A stretch of 64,000 nt of DNA from Desulfovibrionaceae bacterium. Its GTDB lineage: Bacteria > Desulfobacterota > Desulfovibrionia > Desulfovibrionales > Desulfovibrionaceae. The translations under genes and the position numbers were made by a program. The notes under the pieces were generated by a model. It was not told the origin of the DNA and did no database searches. It worked only from the letters and a program-made list of their open reading frames with translations. Positions 796-34,162 of this stretch are shown one piece after another. The DNA lies in assembly GCA_028689675.1 (NCBI GenBank), contig JAQVCS010000003.1:62001-126000 (forward strand), given 5' to 3'. Within the stretch, counting starts at the first letter, position 1. Each line of letters opens with the position of its first letter.

Positions 796-2481
796 TTATA
801 CCTGCATAAAGAGGGGGAAGGTGAAGGCAATAGCCCCGCAGGGGCAGCTGGTGCGGCAGTTTGCGCAATGCCAGCATTCTTCGCCATGAATAACCTGCGG
901 GCGCTCTTGGCCAGCAGCACCGCGCATGCCCAGCACATAGCCGGGGCAGTCATCCACGCAAGTGCCGCATTGCTTGCAATGCCCACAGTGGAAGCAGCGG
1001 GCTGCCTCGGCCATGGCCTGCTCACGGGTGTAGCCAGCGCGGCTTTCTTCTAAAGAAAGCGCATAGCTTACGGCCTGCTCGTGCGGCGCACAATCGGCAT
1101 AGTGAGTGACGCCATAAATTTCTTCATACTCCACCACATGCGGCGGTGTATCTGCGGCCATTTCGTCACAAGCGGCAATGCTGTTATCATCATCAATTAC
1201 ATAGACGCGGGCTTTTTCGCCAGTAAGGAAGGCATGCACGCCAAAGGCAGCCCTGCGCCCCTGCCCTATGGCCTGCGTAATAGAGGCTGGGCCAGAAGCC
1301 ACATCACCAGCGGCAAACAAGCCTTCAATGCTGGCAGCTTGTGCGGCATCGGTCACTATCCAGCCGCGGCGGGTGCATTGCGGTGCAGCATTGTGCAAAA
1401 AGGCCAAATCTGTTTCCATGCCCACAGCAAAAATGACGCTGTCGCAGGCATAAAACTGTTCGCTGCCCGGCACAATGGCGCAGGTCATGCGGCCTTCGGC
1501 ATCTTTGCGGCAATCGCGCACGTCATGATAGGTAAGGCCTGTTACCACGCCTTGTTCTGCATGCACGGCTGTAACAACGCGGCAGGCATGAATATGCACC
1601 CCTTCGGCGCGGGCTTGTTCTGTGTCTTCCAGCGGGGCTGGCATATCTTTTTCTTCGCGACGGTAAAAAATGCTTACTTCATCTGCGCCCAAACGGCGCG
1701 CTGTCGAGGCACAGTCACAGGCTGTGCCGCCGCCGCCAATAACCACCACGCGTTTGCCCAGTGCTGGGCGCTCGCCCATGGCGGCACGGTGCAAAATATC
1801 TACACCCTTCAGGGCATATTCTGCGCCAGCAACGTCCATGGTCTTTTCCAGCGGTGCACCCGTGGCAATGATAACAGCGTCAGAAGCTTCGCGCACAGCG
1901 GCAAAGGAAATGTCGCGCCCCACGGCTGTGTTCACGCGGGCATGCACACCACAGGCCAGCACACGCCCCACTTCGCGGTCAACAATGTCGCGCGGCAGGC
2001 GAAAGGCTGGCACAGCGTGGCGCGGCATACCGCCCAGCAGGGGGGCTGCTTCATATACCGTAACATCGTGCCCCAGCAGGGCTAAAAAGTATGCCGAGCT
2101 CAGCCCCGCAGGCCCCCCGCCAATAATGCTAACATGCTTGCCCGTGGCTTGGCGGCGTGTAAAGGGGGCTATGCTGCCGCCAAAATCAACGGCAGCGCGC
2201 TCTAGCTCACGGGTGCGCACACAGCCATCTTTTTTGGCGCGGTTGCAGGCAGATTGGCAAAAATGCGGGCAGGTGCGCCCCGTCATGCCCGGAAAAGGAT
2301 TTTTGGCATACAGGTAGCGCAGGGCTTCGGCAAACTTTCCCTGCTCTACCAAGGTGGTCATTTTTTGTATGGGGTTACCCGCAGGGCAGGCTATTTCACA
2401 CGGTGAGGTGCGGAACTGTTCCTGTAAGCTTTCGCCCAGCACAATGGGTCTGGTAATTTCTCGGCTATATTTAGGCGGCAT
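796..2481 (-). CDS. GltD-like NAD(P)-dependent FAD oxidoreductase with C-terminal ferredoxin domain
   Basis: 561 residues. The N-terminal part carries the Fe-S cysteine pattern of the glutamate synthase small subunit/dihydropyrimidine dehydrogenase family (CEIACPAGNP at about 28, then CPHFCQSAC at about 71). A FAD-binding GGGPAG motif lies near 122 and an NAD(P)-binding GGGGTACDCA motif near 248. The last ~75 residues add cysteine clusters typical of a 2[4Fe-4S] ferredoxin (CFHCGHCKQCGTCVDDCP and CWHCANCRTSCP). The family moves electrons between NAD(P)H and Fe-S carriers. The gene lies 31 nt after the first flavoprotein and 15 nt before the transporter, in one operon, so I infer it is the electron entry (or exit) point for the flavoproteins. 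An AAGGAG ribosome-binding site precedes the ATG at 2481. Cytoplasmic; no signal peptide. Confidence 0.85.
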   Translation of the reverse strand: MPPKYSREITRPIVLGESLQEQFRTSPCEIACPAGNPIQKMTTLVEQGKFAEALRYLYAKNPFPGMTGRTCPHFCQSACNRAKKDGCVRTRELERAAVDFGGSIAPFTRRQATGKHVSIIGGGPAGLSSAYFLALLGHDVTVYEAAPLLGGMPRHAVPAFRLPRDIVDREVGRVLACGVHARVNTAVGRDISFAAVREASDAVIIATGAPLEKTMDVAGAEYALKGVDILHRAAMGERPALGKRVVVIGGGGTACDCASTARRLGADEVSIFYRREEKDMPAPLEDTEQARAEGVHIHACRVVTAVHAEQGVVTGLTYHDVRDCRKDAEGRMTCAIVPGSEQFYACDSVIFAVGMETDLAFLHNAAPQCTRRGWIVTDAAQAASIEGLFAAGDVASGPASITQAIGQGRRAAFGVHAFLTGEKARVYVIDDDNSIAACDEMAADTPPHVVEYEEIYGVTHYADCAPHEQAVSYALSLEESRAGYTREQAMAEAARCFHCGHCKQCGTCVDDCPGYVLGMRGAAGQERPQVIHGEECWHCANCRTSCPCGAIAFTFPLFMQV

Positions 2482-2512
2482 GAGTACACTCCTTCATGCA
2501 AAAAAAACGGGA

Positions 2513-4177
2513 TTAGAGCAGGGGAGCCTTGCCCCAGAAATATTCGGGGCCGTCAGCGCTTTTGCGCAGCAGCAAAGGCTTGGCCATATCGGGGTTCAGC
2601 TCGGGGTAATCTGTCAGGCGGTATACGCAGCGGCCAGATTCTTTGCGCTGCATGGTGGCCAAAATAGCCAGCTCGCACACATTGAGCACATCTTGTGCTT
2701 CGCGGCAGCGCATAAGCTCGCGCAAATCGCCAGCATGCAGGCGCGAAGCCTGTGCGGAAAGGAAGCGGATTTTTTCTAAAGCCCTTTCCATGCCTGCCAT
2801 AGAACGGCGGAAGCCCATGTAATAATTCATGACATTGCGCGCTGTGCCTTCCAGTTCCTGCCAAGAAATATCGCCCTTGCTGTTCAGCGGGGCAAAGGCT
2901 GCTGTGCGGGCAGCAGCAATGCTGTCGGCATCTATCTGCCCCATGCTGTCCATACCAGCGGCGCGCATGGCCGCCTGCCGCCCAGCTTCATAGCCGCCGC
3001 ATAATGCGCCAGAGCAATACAAGAAAATACTGCCGCAGAACAAATTGGGCAGGCTCGTTTCAAAGTGGTCATTCACGGCCACCGTACCGCCAAAAATCAA
3101 TTCCCCAATTTCCACTTCCAGCATTTTGTGCTGAAAATCGGTGCCTGTGCATTCTGCCCAGTCGCCAAAGGTGGCTTTGTCACCGGGCATAAGGATGTAT
3201 TGCAATTCCTTTACAACCTCTTCAGGCACATGGCGCATATCCATGTAAAAAGGCGGGCCAGAGCCTTCCATTTGCTCGGTAAAGGTGCCCTGAATTTGGT
3301 TATTGCGCACGCCGTTTTCCCACATGCGGTCATATTTGCCCATAAAGCGCTCGCCCATGGCATTAAGCTCATGCGCGCCAGAGCTGTTGATGCCGTTCAT
3401 GCCGGGGCAGCCATAGCCCTTGGGCAGCATGGTGGCGCGCTGGTAGGTATCCAGCTCGGTCACAGCCGCGCCGGCTTCATAGCCCAGCACCACGCCAGCG
3501 CTGGTGTTGTAGGGGTACATCCACACGTTAAAGGGATTGTGGGTGGAATTATTTGTGCCGCGCGTGGCAGAGCGCCCCTGTGCAGACACCACGGTTTTGG
3601 CGCGAATGGTGCAAAATTCCCCTGTCAGCACATTCCAGCCCACTGCCCCGCAGGCCTTGCCGCCGTCTGTCAGAATTTTTACCGCCATAACGTGGTCGAG
3701 CACGTCAATGGCATGCTCGCGCACCACGCGCCCCAGCACACGCTTGATAATCATGCCGTTGGCAATGTGACACCACCATTTGCCGGGCTGCCCAAAGCCC
3801 TGCGTGCGCACAAAGCGGTTTTGGGCATCTTTGCCAAATTGCACGCCAGCTTTTTCCAGCATCAGCAGCAGGGGCTTCATGTGGGCAAACCAGCCCTCGC
3901 GCAGCATGGTGGGCGTCCAGCCATTCAGGGGTTTGGCATAAAATTTGATAAGATCGTCTGCCCCGTCAAATTCGCTGTCTTCTTCCAGAATGGCCATGTA
4001 ATGATCATTCCCACCGCCGAGGCAGCCAGAGCTTTCCAACTTGCCCTTGTCCATAATCAGCACACGCTGGCCTTGTGCCTGCGCGCCTAGGGCAGCACCG
4101 CAGCCAGACGCCCCAGAGCCTATAACCAGCACGTCCGTTTCAATGAGCGTGCCCAAGGTGGATTGACTTGTGTTCAT
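2513..4177 (-). CDS. FAD-binding fumarate-reductase/AprA-superfamily flavoprotein A
   Basis: 554 residues from the ATG at 4177, chosen because GACAGGA lies 7 nt upstream; the frame is open for 14 more codons but without a ribosome-binding site. An N-terminal dinucleotide-binding motif (DVLVIGSGASGCGAALGA, about 15-32) and the C-terminal helical region ending RKESGRCVYRLTDYPE place it in the SdhA/FrdA/AprA superfamily. It is about 100 residues shorter than the true AprA in this window. It has no Sec or Tat signal, so it is cytoplasmic. Where related proteins keep an Arg-Glu-Ser-Arg-Gly-x-His motif, this one reads ESGRCVY, so its chemistry probably differs from fumarate reduction. It heads an operon with the GltD-like protein and the transporter, divergent from the LysR gene. 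The substrate is unknown. Confidence 0.8.
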   Translation of the reverse strand: MNTSQSTLGTLIETDVLVIGSGASGCGAALGAQAQGQRVLIMDKGKLESSGCLGGGNDHYMAILEEDSEFDGADDLIKFYAKPLNGWTPTMLREGWFAHMKPLLLMLEKAGVQFGKDAQNRFVRTQGFGQPGKWWCHIANGMIIKRVLGRVVREHAIDVLDHVMAVKILTDGGKACGAVGWNVLTGEFCTIRAKTVVSAQGRSATRGTNNSTHNPFNVWMYPYNTSAGVVLGYEAGAAVTELDTYQRATMLPKGYGCPGMNGINSSGAHELNAMGERFMGKYDRMWENGVRNNQIQGTFTEQMEGSGPPFYMDMRHVPEEVVKELQYILMPGDKATFGDWAECTGTDFQHKMLEVEIGELIFGGTVAVNDHFETSLPNLFCGSIFLYCSGALCGGYEAGRQAAMRAAGMDSMGQIDADSIAAARTAAFAPLNSKGDISWQELEGTARNVMNYYMGFRRSMAGMERALEKIRFLSAQASRLHAGDLRELMRCREAQDVLNVCELAILATMQRKESGRCVYRLTDYPELNPDMAKPLLLRKSADGPEYFWGKAPLL

Positions 4178-4293
4178 ACCGTATCCTGTCGAGTAAAAAT
4201 CAAGATGGTTATGCCGCATACAAAAGCGGAAGCCTGCAAAAGTATTTCTTTCACTCGGCTTGTGAAAAAAACATCATGGAAAAGTTCTGTATT

Positions 4294-28320: not shown

Positions 28321-29370
28321 ATGAAAAATACACCTTCTTTTTTATCTATAACGCTACCTTGGCCTGCCCCAGCGCGGGGCAACGCGCCTGTGCGCCCTGT
28401 CTTTATTCCTTTTTCTGGCTGCCCCACACGCTGTATTTTTTGTGCCCAGCATGTGCAAACAGGGCAGGGGCAGCGCAGCCTTGCCAGCATTCTTGCTGCT
28501 GTGCGCGATGATTTGCGCCAGCGCAGGGCAAGGCAGGCGCCAGCAGTGGAGCTTGCTTTTTTTGGCGGCACCTTTACTGCCATGCCCGCAGCAGACCAGC
28601 AGGCCTGCCTTGATGTGGCCAAACAGGGTTTTGATGAAGGCACAGTGTGTGCTTTGCGCTGTTCCACCAGACCCGATTGCCTTTCTGCGCAGGCTGTGCA
28701 CAGGCTGATGGCTGCGGGCTGCACCATGATAGAGCTGGGCGTGCAAAGCTTTCATGACAGCGCTTTGGTCACAGCAAGGCGCGGCTACAGCGGCGCTGTG
28801 GCACAAGAGGCCTGCGCTACTGTGCTGGCCGCTGGCTGTGCCCTTGGCGTGCAGCTTATGCCCGGTATGCCGGGGGTGACAGCAGCAATTTTTTTGCAGG
28901 ATGTGCACAAAGCCCTTACCTGCGGGGCGCATGTTTTACGCTATTATCCCTGCCTTGTGCTGCGGGGCACAGTGCTTGAAGATTTGTACAGGCAGGGCGC
29001 ATATGCACCGTGGACATGGCAGGAAACGCTTGCTGCCCTGACACAGGGCTGGCTTATGGCAAGGCAGGCCAAGGTGCCCGTAATACGCATGGGGCTTGCC
29101 CCAGAAGAAGGCCTTGATGCCGCTGTGCTTGCAGGCCCCCAGCATAAGGCTTTGGGCGCAGAGGTGCAGGCGCAGGCTTTGCTGCACACAGTAGAGCAGG
29201 CCTGCAGGGGACAGAAATTGCAGGCATTAATTGTGCCGCGTTTTTGTCAGGGCTTTTTTTGGGGGGAAAAGCGCCGCCTTGCCGCAGCGTGGGCTGGCCT
29301 TGGGCTGAGTAGCCAGCAGCTGCATTGGCATGCCCAGCCCGAGCTTGTGCTGCATTGTGCGCCAGAATAG
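28321..29370 (+). CDS. Elp3-like radical SAM protein
   Basis: 349 residues from the ATG at 28321; an in-frame TTG at 28270 has AAGG upstream and is a possible alternative. The radical-SAM motif GCPTRCIFCAQH is near residue 37, followed by ELAFFGGTFTAM and the IELGVQSFHDSAL segment that is typical of the Elp3/HemN-like group. There is no acetyltransferase domain as in full Elp3. The C-terminal half carries unusually many Ala, Gln, Leu and Cys. Its reaction is unknown; a tRNA or cofactor modification is plausible. Confidence 0.75.
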   Translation: MKNTPSFLSITLPWPAPARGNAPVRPVFIPFSGCPTRCIFCAQHVQTGQGQRSLASILAAVRDDLRQRRARQAPAVELAFFGGTFTAMPAADQQACLDVAKQGFDEGTVCALRCSTRPDCLSAQAVHRLMAAGCTMIELGVQSFHDSALVTARRGYSGAVAQEACATVLAAGCALGVQLMPGMPGVTAAIFLQDVHKALTCGAHVLRYYPCLVLRGTVLEDLYRQGAYAPWTWQETLAALTQGWLMARQAKVPVIRMGLAPEEGLDAAVLAGPQHKALGAEVQAQALLHTVEQACRGQKLQALIVPRFCQGFFWGEKRRLAAAWAGLGLSSQQLHWHAQPELVLHCAPE

Positions 29371-29445
29371 TGCGCAGAAATATTTTGTAGGGGATGAAGC
29401 CTACAGCGCTGTTTACCTCTTGTATGCAAGGGCTGAAAAAACAGC

Positions 29446-29762
29446 GCAGGCGTCGGGGATGAACCGACGCCTGCAAGGAGGAGGATGTCGCCGAGACAGG
29501 GATAACTCGGCTAAGAGAGGAGGATGTTTTTACTCGCGTTTGCTTTGACCTTCGGAGGTAAGGAGGTCATTCTGGACGCTTTTTTGCTGTTTTGCCCGCT
29601 TCAGAAGGGGTCTGAAGCGGGCGGCTTTTGTCCCTCGGGGGGGTGAGGAACAAAGGCTGTTGTCCAAGTACAGGAGGAGGTGTCTGGACTGCGTTTTCTT
29701 TCCACCCGCTTCGTGGGGGGATACGAAGCGGGTAGTGTATATCCCTCGGGGGGGAGGAATTA
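29446..29762. repeat. Array of stem-loops with a tandem ~110-bp duplication
   Basis: Between two convergent genes lie at least six inverted repeats: 29446-29474 (11-bp stem), 29490-29511 (6 bp), 29546-29569 (8 bp with one G-T), 29594-29622 (11 bp), 29624-29657 (13 bp, one mismatch) and 29704-29733 (11 bp). The units 29562-29643 and 29676-29753 are imperfect copies spaced about 110 bp apart. Each runs AGGAGGT, a T-rich stretch, a CCCGCTTC...GAAGCGGG stem and CCCTCGGGGGGG. AGGAGGATG or AGGAGGTG strings occur four times. No normal gene is evident; short frames here lack support. It may be a non-coding RNA locus or an extragenic repeat. Confidence 0.6.
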
Positions 29763-29766
29763 TTGC

Positions 29767-30282
29767 TTAGTAGTGACCATTGCCAGTATGGGCTGGCGCA
29801 TGCGCACCGCCGCGGGGCTGACGAGGCTCAGGCCTATTGGCTGGCGCACCTACTTCTTTTTGAATCTTGTCGCGCATTTCTTGGTGCAAATCGGCTGATT
29901 GCGAACGCAATTTATACAGTTCGCTGACAGCATTGCGCACGGCCTTGGTGTCGGGCGTGGTAGCATTTTCCAGTGCGTTCAGCTCATGGCGTTGCACAAA
30001 CATGGCTTCCTGCAATTTTTCCAGCTTATCGCGGTAGCTGGCTACAATGGCATCATAGGCTTTGAGCTGCTCGGCAGAGTAGGCACCTCGTGGCCCCATG
30101 CCCATACCGCGACCCATTCCATGCCCCATGCCCATGTCGTGCATGCCATAGGCCATGTCACCACCCATAGCAGGACAGCCCATGTTGTTCATGCTGCGGC
30201 TATAGGCTTCAGAGGCAAACGAGGCAGATCCAAGCATAAAGGCTGCAACCAAAAAAGATACCATTACTCGCGAAGATTTCAT
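29767..30282 (-). CDS. ZraP/Spy-like periplasmic protein 2
   Basis: 171 residues with a signal peptide (VMVSFLVAAFMLGSASFAS). After it comes a Met/Gly/His-rich stretch (MGHGMGRGMGMGPRG) able to bind soft metals. Then a helical heavy-metal-resistance domain follows (about 70-140: EQLKAYDAIVASYRDKLEKL, LRSQSADLHQEMRDKIQKE), and the tail is Pro/Gly/His rich. ZraP-type proteins are zinc-binding periplasmic chaperones induced by the ZraSR system. AAGGAG lies 7 nt before the ATG. A consensus sigma-54 promoter at 30408-30423 drives it and the kinase/regulator pair lies nearby. Confidence 0.8.
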   Translation of the reverse strand: MKSSRVMVSFLVAAFMLGSASFASEAYSRSMNNMGCPAMGGDMAYGMHDMGMGHGMGRGMGMGPRGAYSAEQLKAYDAIVASYRDKLEKLQEAMFVQRHELNALENATTPDTKAVRNAVSELYKLRSQSADLHQEMRDKIQKEVGAPANRPEPRQPRGGAHAPAHTGNGHY

Positions 30283-30407: not shown

Positions 30408-30423
30408 AGCAAGACGCGTGCCA
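30408..30423 (-). promoter_or_regulatory. Sigma-54 promoter of ZraP-like gene 2
   Basis: On the minus strand the sequence TGGCACGCGTCTTGCT fits the -24/-12 consensus at every defined position (GG and GC separated by 10 nt). It lies about 125 nt before the ATG of the ZraP-like gene at 30282. Confidence 0.85.
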
Positions 30424-30581
30424 AACAAGAATAAAATATGTATCTTATTGATATAACAAGGTAATATTTTTTAAGCTCTATTATGCCCTGCATTTGCCCT
30501 GTTTTTTTCTTATACAGCCGTGCTGTCCGCTGCATAATTTTTAAACACAGCACTTGTCGCATAGCTCAGTTTTTGAACAGG
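30424..30581. other. Intergenic stretch upstream of sigma-54 promoter 2
   Basis: AT-rich; expected to contain activator (ZraR-like) and IHF sites. No clear palindrome was recognised by eye. Confidence 0.3.
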
Positions 30582-30642: not shown

Positions 30643-31251
30643 TTATTCCGGCACAATTTTGGCTATGGCACTATAGCCGCGGCCGCGTGGCTCGGGCAGG
30701 GGGTGCCCTACCGTTTTTTGCAGGCGGCGGTTAACCGTGCTGATTTCTTCTTTGAGGCGGCTGCGTAATTCTTGTAATTCCTGCCCTAGTGCAGGCAAGG
30801 CCTGCGGGTCTGTTTCGCGGCAAAAGGTCAGGGCTTCCAGCTGGTGCATTTTTTGATCCATTTGATGTTTGATATCGCGAATAACGGGGCTTGCATCCTG
30901 TAAAATAAGCGTGGCCTGCTGGCGCTGCTCTGGGCTGAGCTGGGCAAGCCATTGCTTGAGCCCAATATTTTTTTCTTTTGTTAGGGCACGTTTTTCTGCT
31001 TGCTGCTCGCCCCTTTGCAGGGGCACAGGCGGGGTGCGCCATTCTGCGCAAGGGGGCATGGCTGCCATGCCTGCCTGCGGCATAGAGGGTAGCGAAGGGG
31101 CAATATTTTTCAGGGGGCTGTTGCTTACGCTGTGCATTGGTGCTGTGTGGGGCAGCATGCCACGGCCATGGTCAGCCCCATGAGCAAAAAGTATACAGGG
31201 GCTGCCAAGCACGCAGGCGGTTACGATAACATTTTGTAATAGTTGGCGCAT
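30643..31251 (-). CDS. ZraP/Spy-like periplasmic protein 1
   Basis: 202 residues from the ATG at 31251 (GGGAG upstream; the 26 earlier codons have no site). A signal peptide (LLQNVIVTACVLGSPCILFA) is followed by a His/Met/Pro-rich region (HGADHGRGMLPHTAPMHSV) and a helical domain with the LSPEQRQQATLILQDASP and LEALTFCRETDPQALPALGQELQELRSRL-like patterns of the CpxP/Spy/ZraP group. It is a paralogue of the protein at 29767-30282 but longer. A sigma-54-type promoter lies at 31325-31340. Divergent from the kinase gene. Confidence 0.7.
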   Translation of the reverse strand: MRQLLQNVIVTACVLGSPCILFAHGADHGRGMLPHTAPMHSVSNSPLKNIAPSLPSMPQAGMAAMPPCAEWRTPPVPLQRGEQQAEKRALTKEKNIGLKQWLAQLSPEQRQQATLILQDASPVIRDIKHQMDQKMHQLEALTFCRETDPQALPALGQELQELRSRLKEEISTVNRRLQKTVGHPLPEPRGRGYSAIAKIVPE

Positions 31252-31324
31252 ACGATAATTCTCCCAAAAGCAACAAGGCAAAGCAGGCAAGAAAATGGCT
31301 GAAAAAGTCCTCTTTCTATAGTAT

Positions 31325-31340
31325 AGCAAAAAACGTGCAA
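31325..31340 (-). promoter_or_regulatory. Sigma-54-type promoter of ZraP-like gene 1
   Basis: On the minus strand TTGCACGTTTTTTGCT matches the -24/-12 consensus except for one position of the -24 GG pair. The leader would be about 63 nt. Confidence 0.75.
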
Positions 31341-31394
31341 AAAGTCTTTTTTCTGCCCCTGTACAGTAATGGACAAGCTCGTTATAGTGTGGTT

Positions 31395-32786
31395 ATGAAA
31401 ACAATGTTACGCCAAGCCCATGCCAACCCCACGCCCAAGGCGTGGTATATTGGCGTTGCCTTTGTGCTGGCGCTTATGGTGGGCATGGTGTCCTTTACGT
31501 CTATGGAACGCCACGAAACTACCATGACGCGCCTGCTGGCCGAAAAGGGCGATTCCCTCATTCTTGCTTTTGAAAATATTTTACGCACGGGCATGCGCTC
31601 GCAAATGGGCTTGCGTGTGCAGGTGCTGCTGGAAGAAATGAGCGCCAGCCCCGATATTCACTTTATTGCCGTCACCATGCCCGATGGCACTATTGTGGCG
31701 CACAGCAACCCCGCTCGTCTAGGGGAAATTTTACAAATTGATGATAAAGAAATAGATGAAGCTACCATGAGCCAATGGCGGCAGGACGACCAGCGGCATT
31801 GGCGCATTACTAATATGGAAGGGCGGCGCGCTTTTGTGGTGTACCAAACCTTTTCGCCCCTGCGCCGTCAGTTTACCCCACCCCTGCCCCAGCCCATGAT
31901 ATTTTTGGGCTTGGATGTGAGCCCCTTTGAAAGTAGCCGTAATCAAGACAGAAATCAGGCCTTGCTTATGGCTTTGGTTATTATGCTGGTGGGCATGGCC
32001 TCGCTGCTGGCCTTGTATTATGCGCAGCATGCCCGCATTTCACGCCAGCGCCAGCGCCGCGCCGAGGGGCAGGTGCGCCTGCTGGAAGAAGAAATGCGCC
32101 GCAAAGAAAAGCTGGCGGCGGTGGGCTCGCTTGCTGCTGGCGTGGCACATGAAATTCGCAACCCTTTAAGCTCTATCAAGGGCTATGCCACCTATTTTGG
32201 TCAGCGCTTCCCCGAGGGTAGCGAAGACAGAGAGGCCGCACATGTTATGGTGCGCGAGGTGGACAGGCTTAACCGCGTGATTACTGATTTAATAGGTCTT
32301 TCGCGCCCCACCGATGTCAACCTTTGCCCTACAGACTTGCGTGAAGTGGCTGCCCATGCCCTGCAACTGCTTAAGCAGGATGCCGAACAGCGTGGCGTGC
32401 GCTGCACGCTGGAGGCTGCCGAAGGCCTGCCCCTTGCCGCCATAGACCCAGACCGCATGAAGCAAGCCGTGCTGAACTTATGCCTGAATGCTTTAGATGC
32501 CATGCCCAAGGGTGGGGTGCTGACCCTTTCTTTGGCCAAAGAAGGCGGGCGTGTGCGCCTGCGCGTGAGCGATACAGGCATAGGCATGGCACCCGAATTG
32601 CTGAAAAGTATTTTTAACCCGTACTTTACCACCAAGGGCAATGGCACAGGCATGGGGCTTGCCATTGTGCATAAAATTATTGAAGCTCATGGCGGAGAAA
32701 TAGACGTCACCTCACGCCCTGCCACGGAAAAGCGCGCTGGGCAAACCTCGTTTACCCTTTGGCTGCCAGAAGCGGGCAAATCCTGA
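31395..32786 (+). CDS. ZraS-like sensor histidine kinase
   Basis: 463 residues from the ATG at 31395; a GTG 20 codons upstream lacks a site. Two membrane segments (about 18-38 and 196-216) enclose a periplasmic sensor domain of about 155 residues. A coiled linker and the phosphorylation motif GVAHEIRNPLSSIKG follow, then the catalytic domain with N, G1 (DTGIGMAP) and G2 (GNGTGMGLAI) boxes. It phosphorylates the response regulator next door, 11 nt downstream. The two ZraP-like genes beside it and the domain layout support a zinc/lead or envelope-stress role like that of ZraS. Confidence 0.85.
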   Translation: MKTMLRQAHANPTPKAWYIGVAFVLALMVGMVSFTSMERHETTMTRLLAEKGDSLILAFENILRTGMRSQMGLRVQVLLEEMSASPDIHFIAVTMPDGTIVAHSNPARLGEILQIDDKEIDEATMSQWRQDDQRHWRITNMEGRRAFVVYQTFSPLRRQFTPPLPQPMIFLGLDVSPFESSRNQDRNQALLMALVIMLVGMASLLALYYAQHARISRQRQRRAEGQVRLLEEEMRRKEKLAAVGSLAAGVAHEIRNPLSSIKGYATYFGQRFPEGSEDREAAHVMVREVDRLNRVITDLIGLSRPTDVNLCPTDLREVAAHALQLLKQDAEQRGVRCTLEAAEGLPLAAIDPDRMKQAVLNLCLNALDAMPKGGVLTLSLAKEGGRVRLRVSDTGIGMAPELLKSIFNPYFTTKGNGTGMGLAIVHKIIEAHGGEIDVTSRPATEKRAGQTSFTLWLPEAGKS

Positions 32787-32797
32787 ATGGAATAATT

Positions 32798-34162
32798 ATG
32801 CAAGCTCATATCCTCCTTGTTGATGATGATAATGCCCACCGTTCCATGCTGAAAACCATGATGCGTTCGTGGAACTATACGGTAACAGAGGCCAGCGATG
32901 GCGATGAGGCCGTGCGCCTTGTGCGCGAGCAGGCCTTTGATGCTGTGCTGACCGATGTAAAAATGGCGCGTGTGGATGGCATTGCCGCCCTGCGCGGTAT
33001 GTTGGACTATAACCCCGCGCTGCCCGTTATTTTGATGACGGCCTATTCTTCTGTGGAAACTGCCGTGGATGCCCTGCGGCTGGGGGCGTATGATTATTTA
33101 ACAAAGCCGTTGGATTTTGACGCCTTAAAAAATACCCTTGCCCGCGCGCTGGAACATTCCCGCCTAACGGTGGAAAACCGCGAATTGCGCCGCCAGCTTA
33201 CTGAATCGGCCTCCAGTGCTGAAATTTTGGGGCGCAGCCCGCGCGTGCGGGACATGCTGCAAACCATCAGCACCGTTGCCCCCACCGAGGCCACGGTGCT
33301 GATTACGGGAGAATCGGGCACAGGCAAGGAACTTGTGGCGCGTGCCCTGCATTTTGGCTCTTTGCGGGCGGCCAAGCCCTTGGTTACGGTGAACTGTGCG
33401 GCACTTTCAGAAAATTTGCTGGAATCGGAATTGTTTGGGCATGAGAGGGGTGCATTTACAGGGGCAGACAAGCGCCGCGATGGGCGTTTTGTGCAGGCCG
33501 ATGGCGGCACGCTTTTTTTGGATGAAGTGGGGGAAATTCCCCTAACCTTGCAGGCCAAGCTGCTGCGCGCTTTGCAGCAGGGCGAAGTGCAGCGCGTGGG
33601 CTCAGATACGCCCATTATGGTAGATGTGCGCATTATTGCCGCCACCAATCGCGATTTGAAGCAGGAAGTGGCAGAAAGGCGCTTTCGCGAAGACCTCTAT
33701 TTCCGCCTGAATGTTATTAGCATTGAAGTGCCAGCTCTGCGCCAGCGTAAAGAAGACATAGCCCTGCTGGCTGCGCATTTTTTGCAGAGCTTTGCCCAGC
33801 GCAACCGTAAGGAATTGAAGGGCTTTTCGCCACAGGCCTTGGATGCTTTGCTGCGTTATGACTGGCCGGGCAATGTGCGCGAATTGCAGAATGCTGTGGA
33901 GCGCTCTGTTATTTTAAGCACTGGGGAATATGTGGGCGTGCGCGAGCTGCCCCTTGCCCTTGGGGCTATAGTGGCAGAAGAAGAAACAGCGCAGCCGCAG
34001 GCCGAGGGCACCTCGTTGGCAGGCCTGCCTTTGGATGAAGTGGAGCGCCGTGCTATTTTGGCCACCCTGCATACGGTGGATGAAAATAAAAGCGAGGCCG
34101 CCCGTGTTTTGGGCATTACCCGTGCCACCCTGCACAGTAAATTAAAAAAATTTGGTTTATAA
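32798..34162 (+). CDS. ZraR-like NtrC-family sigma-54 response regulator
   Basis: 454 residues. The receiver domain has the acidic pocket ILLVDDDNAH and the phospho-acceptor in AVLTDVKMARVDG (about residue 52). The AAA+ domain has Walker A GESGTGKELVARA and the sigma-54 contact loop GAFTGA. A Fis-type helix-turn-helix ends the protein (NKSEAARVLGITRATLHSKLKKFG). It follows the kinase gene by 11 nt. The two sigma-54 promoters at 30408 and 31325 are its probable targets. Confidence 0.92.
   Translation: MQAHILLVDDDNAHRSMLKTMMRSWNYTVTEASDGDEAVRLVREQAFDAVLTDVKMARVDGIAALRGMLDYNPALPVILMTAYSSVETAVDALRLGAYDYLTKPLDFDALKNTLARALEHSRLTVENRELRRQLTESASSAEILGRSPRVRDMLQTISTVAPTEATVLITGESGTGKELVARALHFGSLRAAKPLVTVNCAALSENLLESELFGHERGAFTGADKRRDGRFVQADGGTLFLDEVGEIPLTLQAKLLRALQQGEVQRVGSDTPIMVDVRIIAATNRDLKQEVAERRFREDLYFRLNVISIEVPALRQRKEDIALLAAHFLQSFAQRNRKELKGFSPQALDALLRYDWPGNVRELQNAVERSVILSTGEYVGVRELPLALGAIVAEEETAQPQAEGTSLAGLPLDEVERRAILATLHTVDENKSEAARVLGITRATLHSKLKKFGL

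Follow-up and report, generated by a model that had tools for sequence, protein, structure and literature searches.

An array of hairpins at positions 29446-29762 of the window (the 64,000-nucleotide stretch of Desulfovibrionaceae DNA analysed here) is the 3' untranslated region (UTR) of a zraP-like metal/envelope-stress gene, read from the minus strand. The element belongs to a small-RNA family of Desulfovibrio and relatives that is apparently undescribed, no publications on this RNA having been found in the open-access literature. It is probable that the product is a small RNA induced by ZraSR and σ54 and independent of Hfq, whose CCUCC motifs pair with Shine-Dalgarno sequences and repress translation. 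The features of the locus, in the order in which the minus strand is read, are as follows:

32759-34162, plus strand: zraR-like σ54 response regulator (closest to ZraR in NCBIfam, under the cut-off)
31335-32786, plus strand: sensor kinase gene zraS (its NCBIfam ZraS score exceeds the cut-off)
30643-31329, minus strand: second Metal_resist gene, flanked by zraP and zraS
30499-30550, minus strand: probable upstream activating elements, resembling (by eye) those of relatives' stand-alone copies
30408-30423, minus strand: σ54 promoter TGGCACGCGTCTTGCT upstream of zraP (pattern search)
29767-30282, minus strand: zraP-like gene (Metal_resist, PF13801; closest to ZraP in NCBIfam, under the cut-off)
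29436-29766, minus strand: small RNA/zraP 3' UTR, whole element with U-tract (covariance hits, fold)
29655-29760, minus strand: module 1, the 5' copy on this strand, with a small hairpin, a C-loop hairpin and a CCTCCTCC linker (alignment to module 2)
29704-29733, minus strand: hairpin in module 1 with an 11 bp stem and the C-rich loop ATCCCCCC
29673-29680, minus strand: exposed CCTCCTCC (anti-Shine-Dalgarno), unpaired probability 0.98-0.99
29540-29655, minus strand: module 2, duplicate of module 1 (alignment to module 1)
29594-29622, minus strand: hairpin in module 2 with a 12 bp stem and the C-rich loop CCCCT
29554-29566, minus strand: CCTCCTTACCTCC, one of its two sites exposed (predicted pairing)
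29519-29523, minus strand: CCTCC in AACATCCTCCTC, matching the conserved core of relatives
29490-29511, minus strand: short hairpin with loop TTATCCCTGT and a CCTCC linker on either side
29477-29484, minus strand: CCTCCTCC within GACATCCTCCTCC, immediately ahead of the terminator, matching the conserved core
29445-29475, minus strand: intrinsic terminator, formed by the hairpin GCAGGCGTCGG-TTCATCC-CCGACGCCTGC and a TTTTTT tract, with conservation and covariation in relatives

The hairpins and the duplication are real and far beyond chance. Perfect stems were found at 29594-29622 (12 bp) and, with 11 bp each, at 29704-29733 and 29446-29474, i.e., three stems of at least 10 bp, while dinucleotide shuffles contained 0.002 such stems on average, and none of 500 reached three. 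A fourth, shorter stem (6 bp) is located at 29490-29511; the six inverted repeats counted in the preliminary description are reached only when weaker ones are included. The tandem duplication, put at about 80 bp in that description, is imperfect and somewhat larger, ca. 110 bp (about 29655-29760 versus 29540-29655), with an alignment score of 96.5 (shuffles: mean 42, maximum 65). The duplicated CCCGCTTC stems indeed have unlike loops, as had been noticed; in addition, their outermost pair differs compensatorily (A-T versus G-C), and their innermost pairs also differ. CCCTCGGGGGGG is present in both modules (29632-29643 and 29743-29754), and AGGAGG recurs, also as described. The earlier proposal of a structured non-coding RNA with two tandem modules under selection is supported, and compensatory changes in relatives agree with it.

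The strand initially assumed for this RNA was wrong: the terminator, the σ54 promoter, zraP synteny, and the exposed CCUCC all indicate the minus strand. The zraP-like gene lies on the minus strand to the right of the element, the fold departs further from chance on this strand (z -11.7 versus -7.3 for the plus strand), and the intrinsic terminator with its TTTTTT is also on the minus strand. We therefore conclude that the element is the zraP 3' UTR, and the gene and the RNA are taken to be on one transcript. The terminator with the U-tract spans 29475-29436 and is the last hairpin before the left neighbour, a plus-strand radical-SAM gene that ends at 29370 (a scan for the radical-SAM protein across the genome contigs gave no match). 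The statement that the element is a leader of neither neighbouring gene was right, but it is nonetheless a trailer of one of them. As judged from sequence, its position downstream of a same-strand ORF and its end at an intrinsic terminator are those of a 3' UTR-derived small RNA. A small plus-strand ORF (29524-29646, 40 amino acids) was considered and rejected, as AGGAGG abuts its ATG, leaving no sensible Shine-Dalgarno spacing.

The recurring AGGAGG string is the complement of CCUCC, an anti-Shine-Dalgarno sequence; AGGAGG itself is probably not functional, while CCUCC probably is. In the window element, CCTCC occurs eight times versus 2.0 expected and CCTCCT six times versus 0.45. In the minus-strand fold, the unpaired probability of CCUCC is 0.76, compared to 0.46 overall, although the sites at 29753-29757 and 29562-29566 are paired; in the plus-strand fold, GGAGG is buried (0.23 versus 0.32 overall). 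Among 28 elements, the CCTCC count is three to nine per element and the GGAGG count is zero, with an excess of CCTCC over shuffles that is modest in several relatives, whose composition is already C-rich. With multiple exposed CCUCC or C-rich Shine-Dalgarno-complementary motifs, the RNA is a candidate member of the C-rich/anti-Shine-Dalgarno class. The many GGA motifs of the opposite strand, some of them in hairpin loops (GGATGAA, ACAGGGATAA), could instead indicate a CsrB/RsmZ-like plus-strand RNA that sequesters CsrA. This is highly improbable: the loop GGA is not retained in relatives, GGAGG is buried, the terminator and the promoter are both on the minus strand, and no CsrA was detected with the Pfam model in the window genome, which is 99.5% complete. 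We reject a CsrB-like sponge for this genome, barring a divergent CsrA missed by the Pfam model.

ZraP protein searches yielded relatives' loci from Desulfovibrio and from the genus of the window itself. In both, zraP is followed on its own strand by an RNA of this kind, which has a terminator hairpin and blocks of CCUCC, though in some Desulfovibrio (L064-L066) zraP is present and the element behind it is absent. The σ54 promoter pattern TGGCAC(G/A)N4TTGCT precedes zraP in nearly all linked loci, and σ54 is encoded in the window genome. A core, AACCTCTAACC..GGAACATCCTCC, is common to relatives' elements, and its pattern is present in, among others, D. piger ATCC 29098, Desulfovibrio sp. ZJ369, Candidatus Desulfovibrio intestinavium, and Candidatus Desulfovibrio gallistercoris. 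Compensatory changes affect nine of the 10 pairs of the relatives' terminator hairpin.

Two covariance models were used, R1 with 28 sequences, window included, and R2 with 33 Desulfovibrio sequences and none from the window's genus. R1 matched the window at 29433-29551 (minus strand), which is its one strong site in the window genome; at an E-value of 0.01 or better, 38 of 55 near-complete genomes of Desulfovibrio had matches, which were weak in a few cases and in multiple copies in some. With R2, the best match in 70 kb was the window element itself (29613-29433, minus strand, 27.4 bits, E 2.7e-5, E-values being rough), mainly through its 3' part. In the R2 alignment, 13 of 20 pairs had double changes versus 5.1 in shuffles, and covariation was 0.293 versus 0.166, collapsing with every column slide. 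The further copies in relatives and the stem covariance that the preliminary description had proposed to look for were both found, the former in Desulfovibrio and the window's genus. By comparison of sequences, the predicted RNA family and its promoter are well supported. Across the taxonomic family, R2 at an E-value of 0.001 matched 43 of 288 genomes from one of 44 genera, Desulfovibrio only; since it misses the window's own genus at this threshold, copies in other genera may be missed as well. Copies within the window's genus are divergent, and one of them (L014) matches R2 weakly (E 0.07). Three core-pattern matches carried non-Desulfovibrio titles; two failed R1 and one matched it weakly. 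A weak R1 match (20.7 bits) was seen at 4132-4201 of a contig titled UBP18 UBA7526 (L164). No Rfam 15 family matched at gathering score, the core was not matched in viral contigs, and DNA BLAST in relatives and plasmids revealed only one 26-nt match, in one relative.

A set of 26 RNA copies is not located behind an intact zraP. In 20 of these stand-alone copies, a promoter was found 108-279 nt upstream of the modelled core; in four others it was at 397-416 nt, and in the remaining two none was found by the pattern used. ZraP homology was absent from 900 nt upstream in 18 of the 20 copies with a promoter at 108-279 nt, while in L107 and in one copy at L105 a short ZraP-like fragment remains between the σ54 promoter and the RNA. 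L107 and L105 (G169, G177) are apparent cases of natural ORF loss with retention of the RNA. Upstream elements like TGTRTAAATTTTATAC and TGTATAAAAAAYATAC are, by eye, common to the zraP-linked and stand-alone classes. Because stand-alone copies have their own σ54 promoter and these shared elements, they fix the strand and reveal that the RNA persists in the absence of the protein; stand-alone homologues with predicted promoters of their own are an indirect sign that a stable RNA, processed or independently transcribed, may exist. Several copies are present in G177, G169, and G160. A gene similar in appearance to the second Metal_resist gene was seen upstream of stand-alone RNA at four Desulfovibrio loci (L083, L096, L097, and L100).

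The stand-alone copies bear on whether the element is a 3' end only, its hairpins stabilizing the zraP messenger or its C-rich strand loading Rho, with no function in trans. Structured 3' ends can protect messengers, and Rho binds C-rich, G-poor unpaired RNA, both points in favour of such a role. We nevertheless find it distinctly unlikely, given copies with their own σ54 promoter and no zraP ORF, the presence of several copies in the three genomes named above, an intrinsic terminator that is already there, and exact conservation of the motif. The extant genomes contain both states, RNA attached to the protein gene and a free gene in one to several copies, and zraP fragments remain in two stand-alone copies; how stand-alone small RNAs arise from 3' UTRs can therefore be tested directly in this family.

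The strand, terminator, promoter, conservation, covariation, stand-alone copies, and absence of Hfq and CsrA are supported by the comparative analyses; we infer expression of the RNA, its control by ZraR, processing, targets, repression, and mechanism. Metal or envelope stress would activate ZraS/ZraR, and ZraR with σ54 would drive transcription of zraP and its 3' UTR as far as the terminator (29475-29436); the 3' part would then be freed, probably by a nuclease. In the resulting RNA, unpaired CCUCC/CCUCCUCC linkers would connect hairpins whose loops are C-rich. The linkers would pair with GGAGG Shine-Dalgarno sequences in target messengers and keep ribosomes from binding, with no need for Hfq. 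Hfq was not detected with the Pfam model in the window genome or in 79 Desulfovibrio genomes. In the window copy, duplication of one hairpin-plus-linker module would provide more pairing sites.

Conservation of the unpaired segment exceeds what five-base anti-Shine-Dalgarno pairing by itself requires, as would be expected if the longer AACC-UCU-AACCAUCGGAACAUCCUCC segment of Desulfovibrio were the recognition site of a trans-acting RNA with narrow targets or of a protein-binding RNA, CCUCC being merely part of it. This possibility is rather unlikely, as the window's genus keeps only the ACAUCCUCC part (window, L019), and the number of CCUCC motifs varies, with some gained by duplication in the window copy, suggesting that number matters. 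Another reading, which we hold to be unlikely, is that of a decoy of the 16S rRNA 3' tail, which would dampen Shine-Dalgarno-led initiation under metal or envelope stress, again without Hfq. The usual bacterial 16S end is GUUGGAUCACCUCCUU; several Desulfovibrio versions read GUUGGAACAUCCUCC, which is close to this general tail (not the window genome's own, where the 16S tail pattern gave no match), a molecule contains up to nine CCUCC sites, and a genome has up to five copies of the gene. A decoy would imply broad damping of initiation rather than regulation of a few targets.

The proposed repressor of Shine-Dalgarno-led translation can be compared with several known RNAs. CpxQ, from the cpxP 3' UTR of enterobacteria (PMC4817254, PMC9438474), likewise originates at the 3' end of an envelope-stress messenger, and the stress protein concerned is small, periplasmic, and governed by a two-component system, as is proposed for zraP here. 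CpxQ is ca. 60 nt long, Hfq-dependent, and driven by CpxR, whereas the window RNA has a σ54 promoter, its family also occurs without the protein gene, and Hfq was undetected in the window genome and the 79 Desulfovibrio genomes; the likeness is one of logic. The "cuckoo RNA" family belongs with the CCUCCUCCC anti-Shine-Dalgarno RNAs of Alphaproteobacteria. Such RNAs include SmelA075/SmelA099 (PMC3927594) and CcsR1-4 from the ccaF1 3' UTR (PMC8625941). They share with the window RNA repeated hairpin units, CCUCC anti-Shine-Dalgarno motifs, and variable stems, and the stress-induced CcsR1-4 also share the 3' UTR origin. However, the alphaproteobacterial RNAs present the motif in hairpin loops and have ccaF1 as a host gene, while in the window RNA CCUCCUCCC was not found in apical loops and most CCUCC blocks are in linkers; its host gene is zraP, with a σ54 promoter. 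In D. piger, one hairpin has the loop CTCCTCCTC.

Through C-rich loops, sX13 of Xanthomonas represses messengers that carry G-rich motifs close to their start, independently of Hfq (PMC3771888). The window RNA resembles sX13 in its C-rich loops and, presumably, in repression and Hfq-independence; sX13 is a stand-alone gammaproteobacterial gene with no zraP link, and the likeness is by description, not by sequence. In the related D. vulgaris Hildenborough, σ54-dependent ncRNAs are under the regulators DVU0679, DVU0653, DVU1419, and DVU2359 (PMC3333781, PMC4641369), and DVU3381, to which its own operon and DVU3384 are assigned, has an envelope-stress regulon (PMC4641369). These ncRNAs are under σ54 activators, as is proposed for the present family, and one is in an envelope-stress regulon; they are set apart from it by R2, which matched one of 44 genera, and not base by base. 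The family described here appears to be a new one in gut and environmental Desulfovibrio, a clade without detectable Hfq, and is tied to the ZraSR σ54 stress system.

Not all terminator loops in the family are C-rich, and GAAACAA loops are present in some stand-alone copies. On one contig (L112; G226 contig C8), the RNA model has about nine matches, most of them weak, in tandem on one strand over 3 kb (1383-4269), possibly a diverged array.
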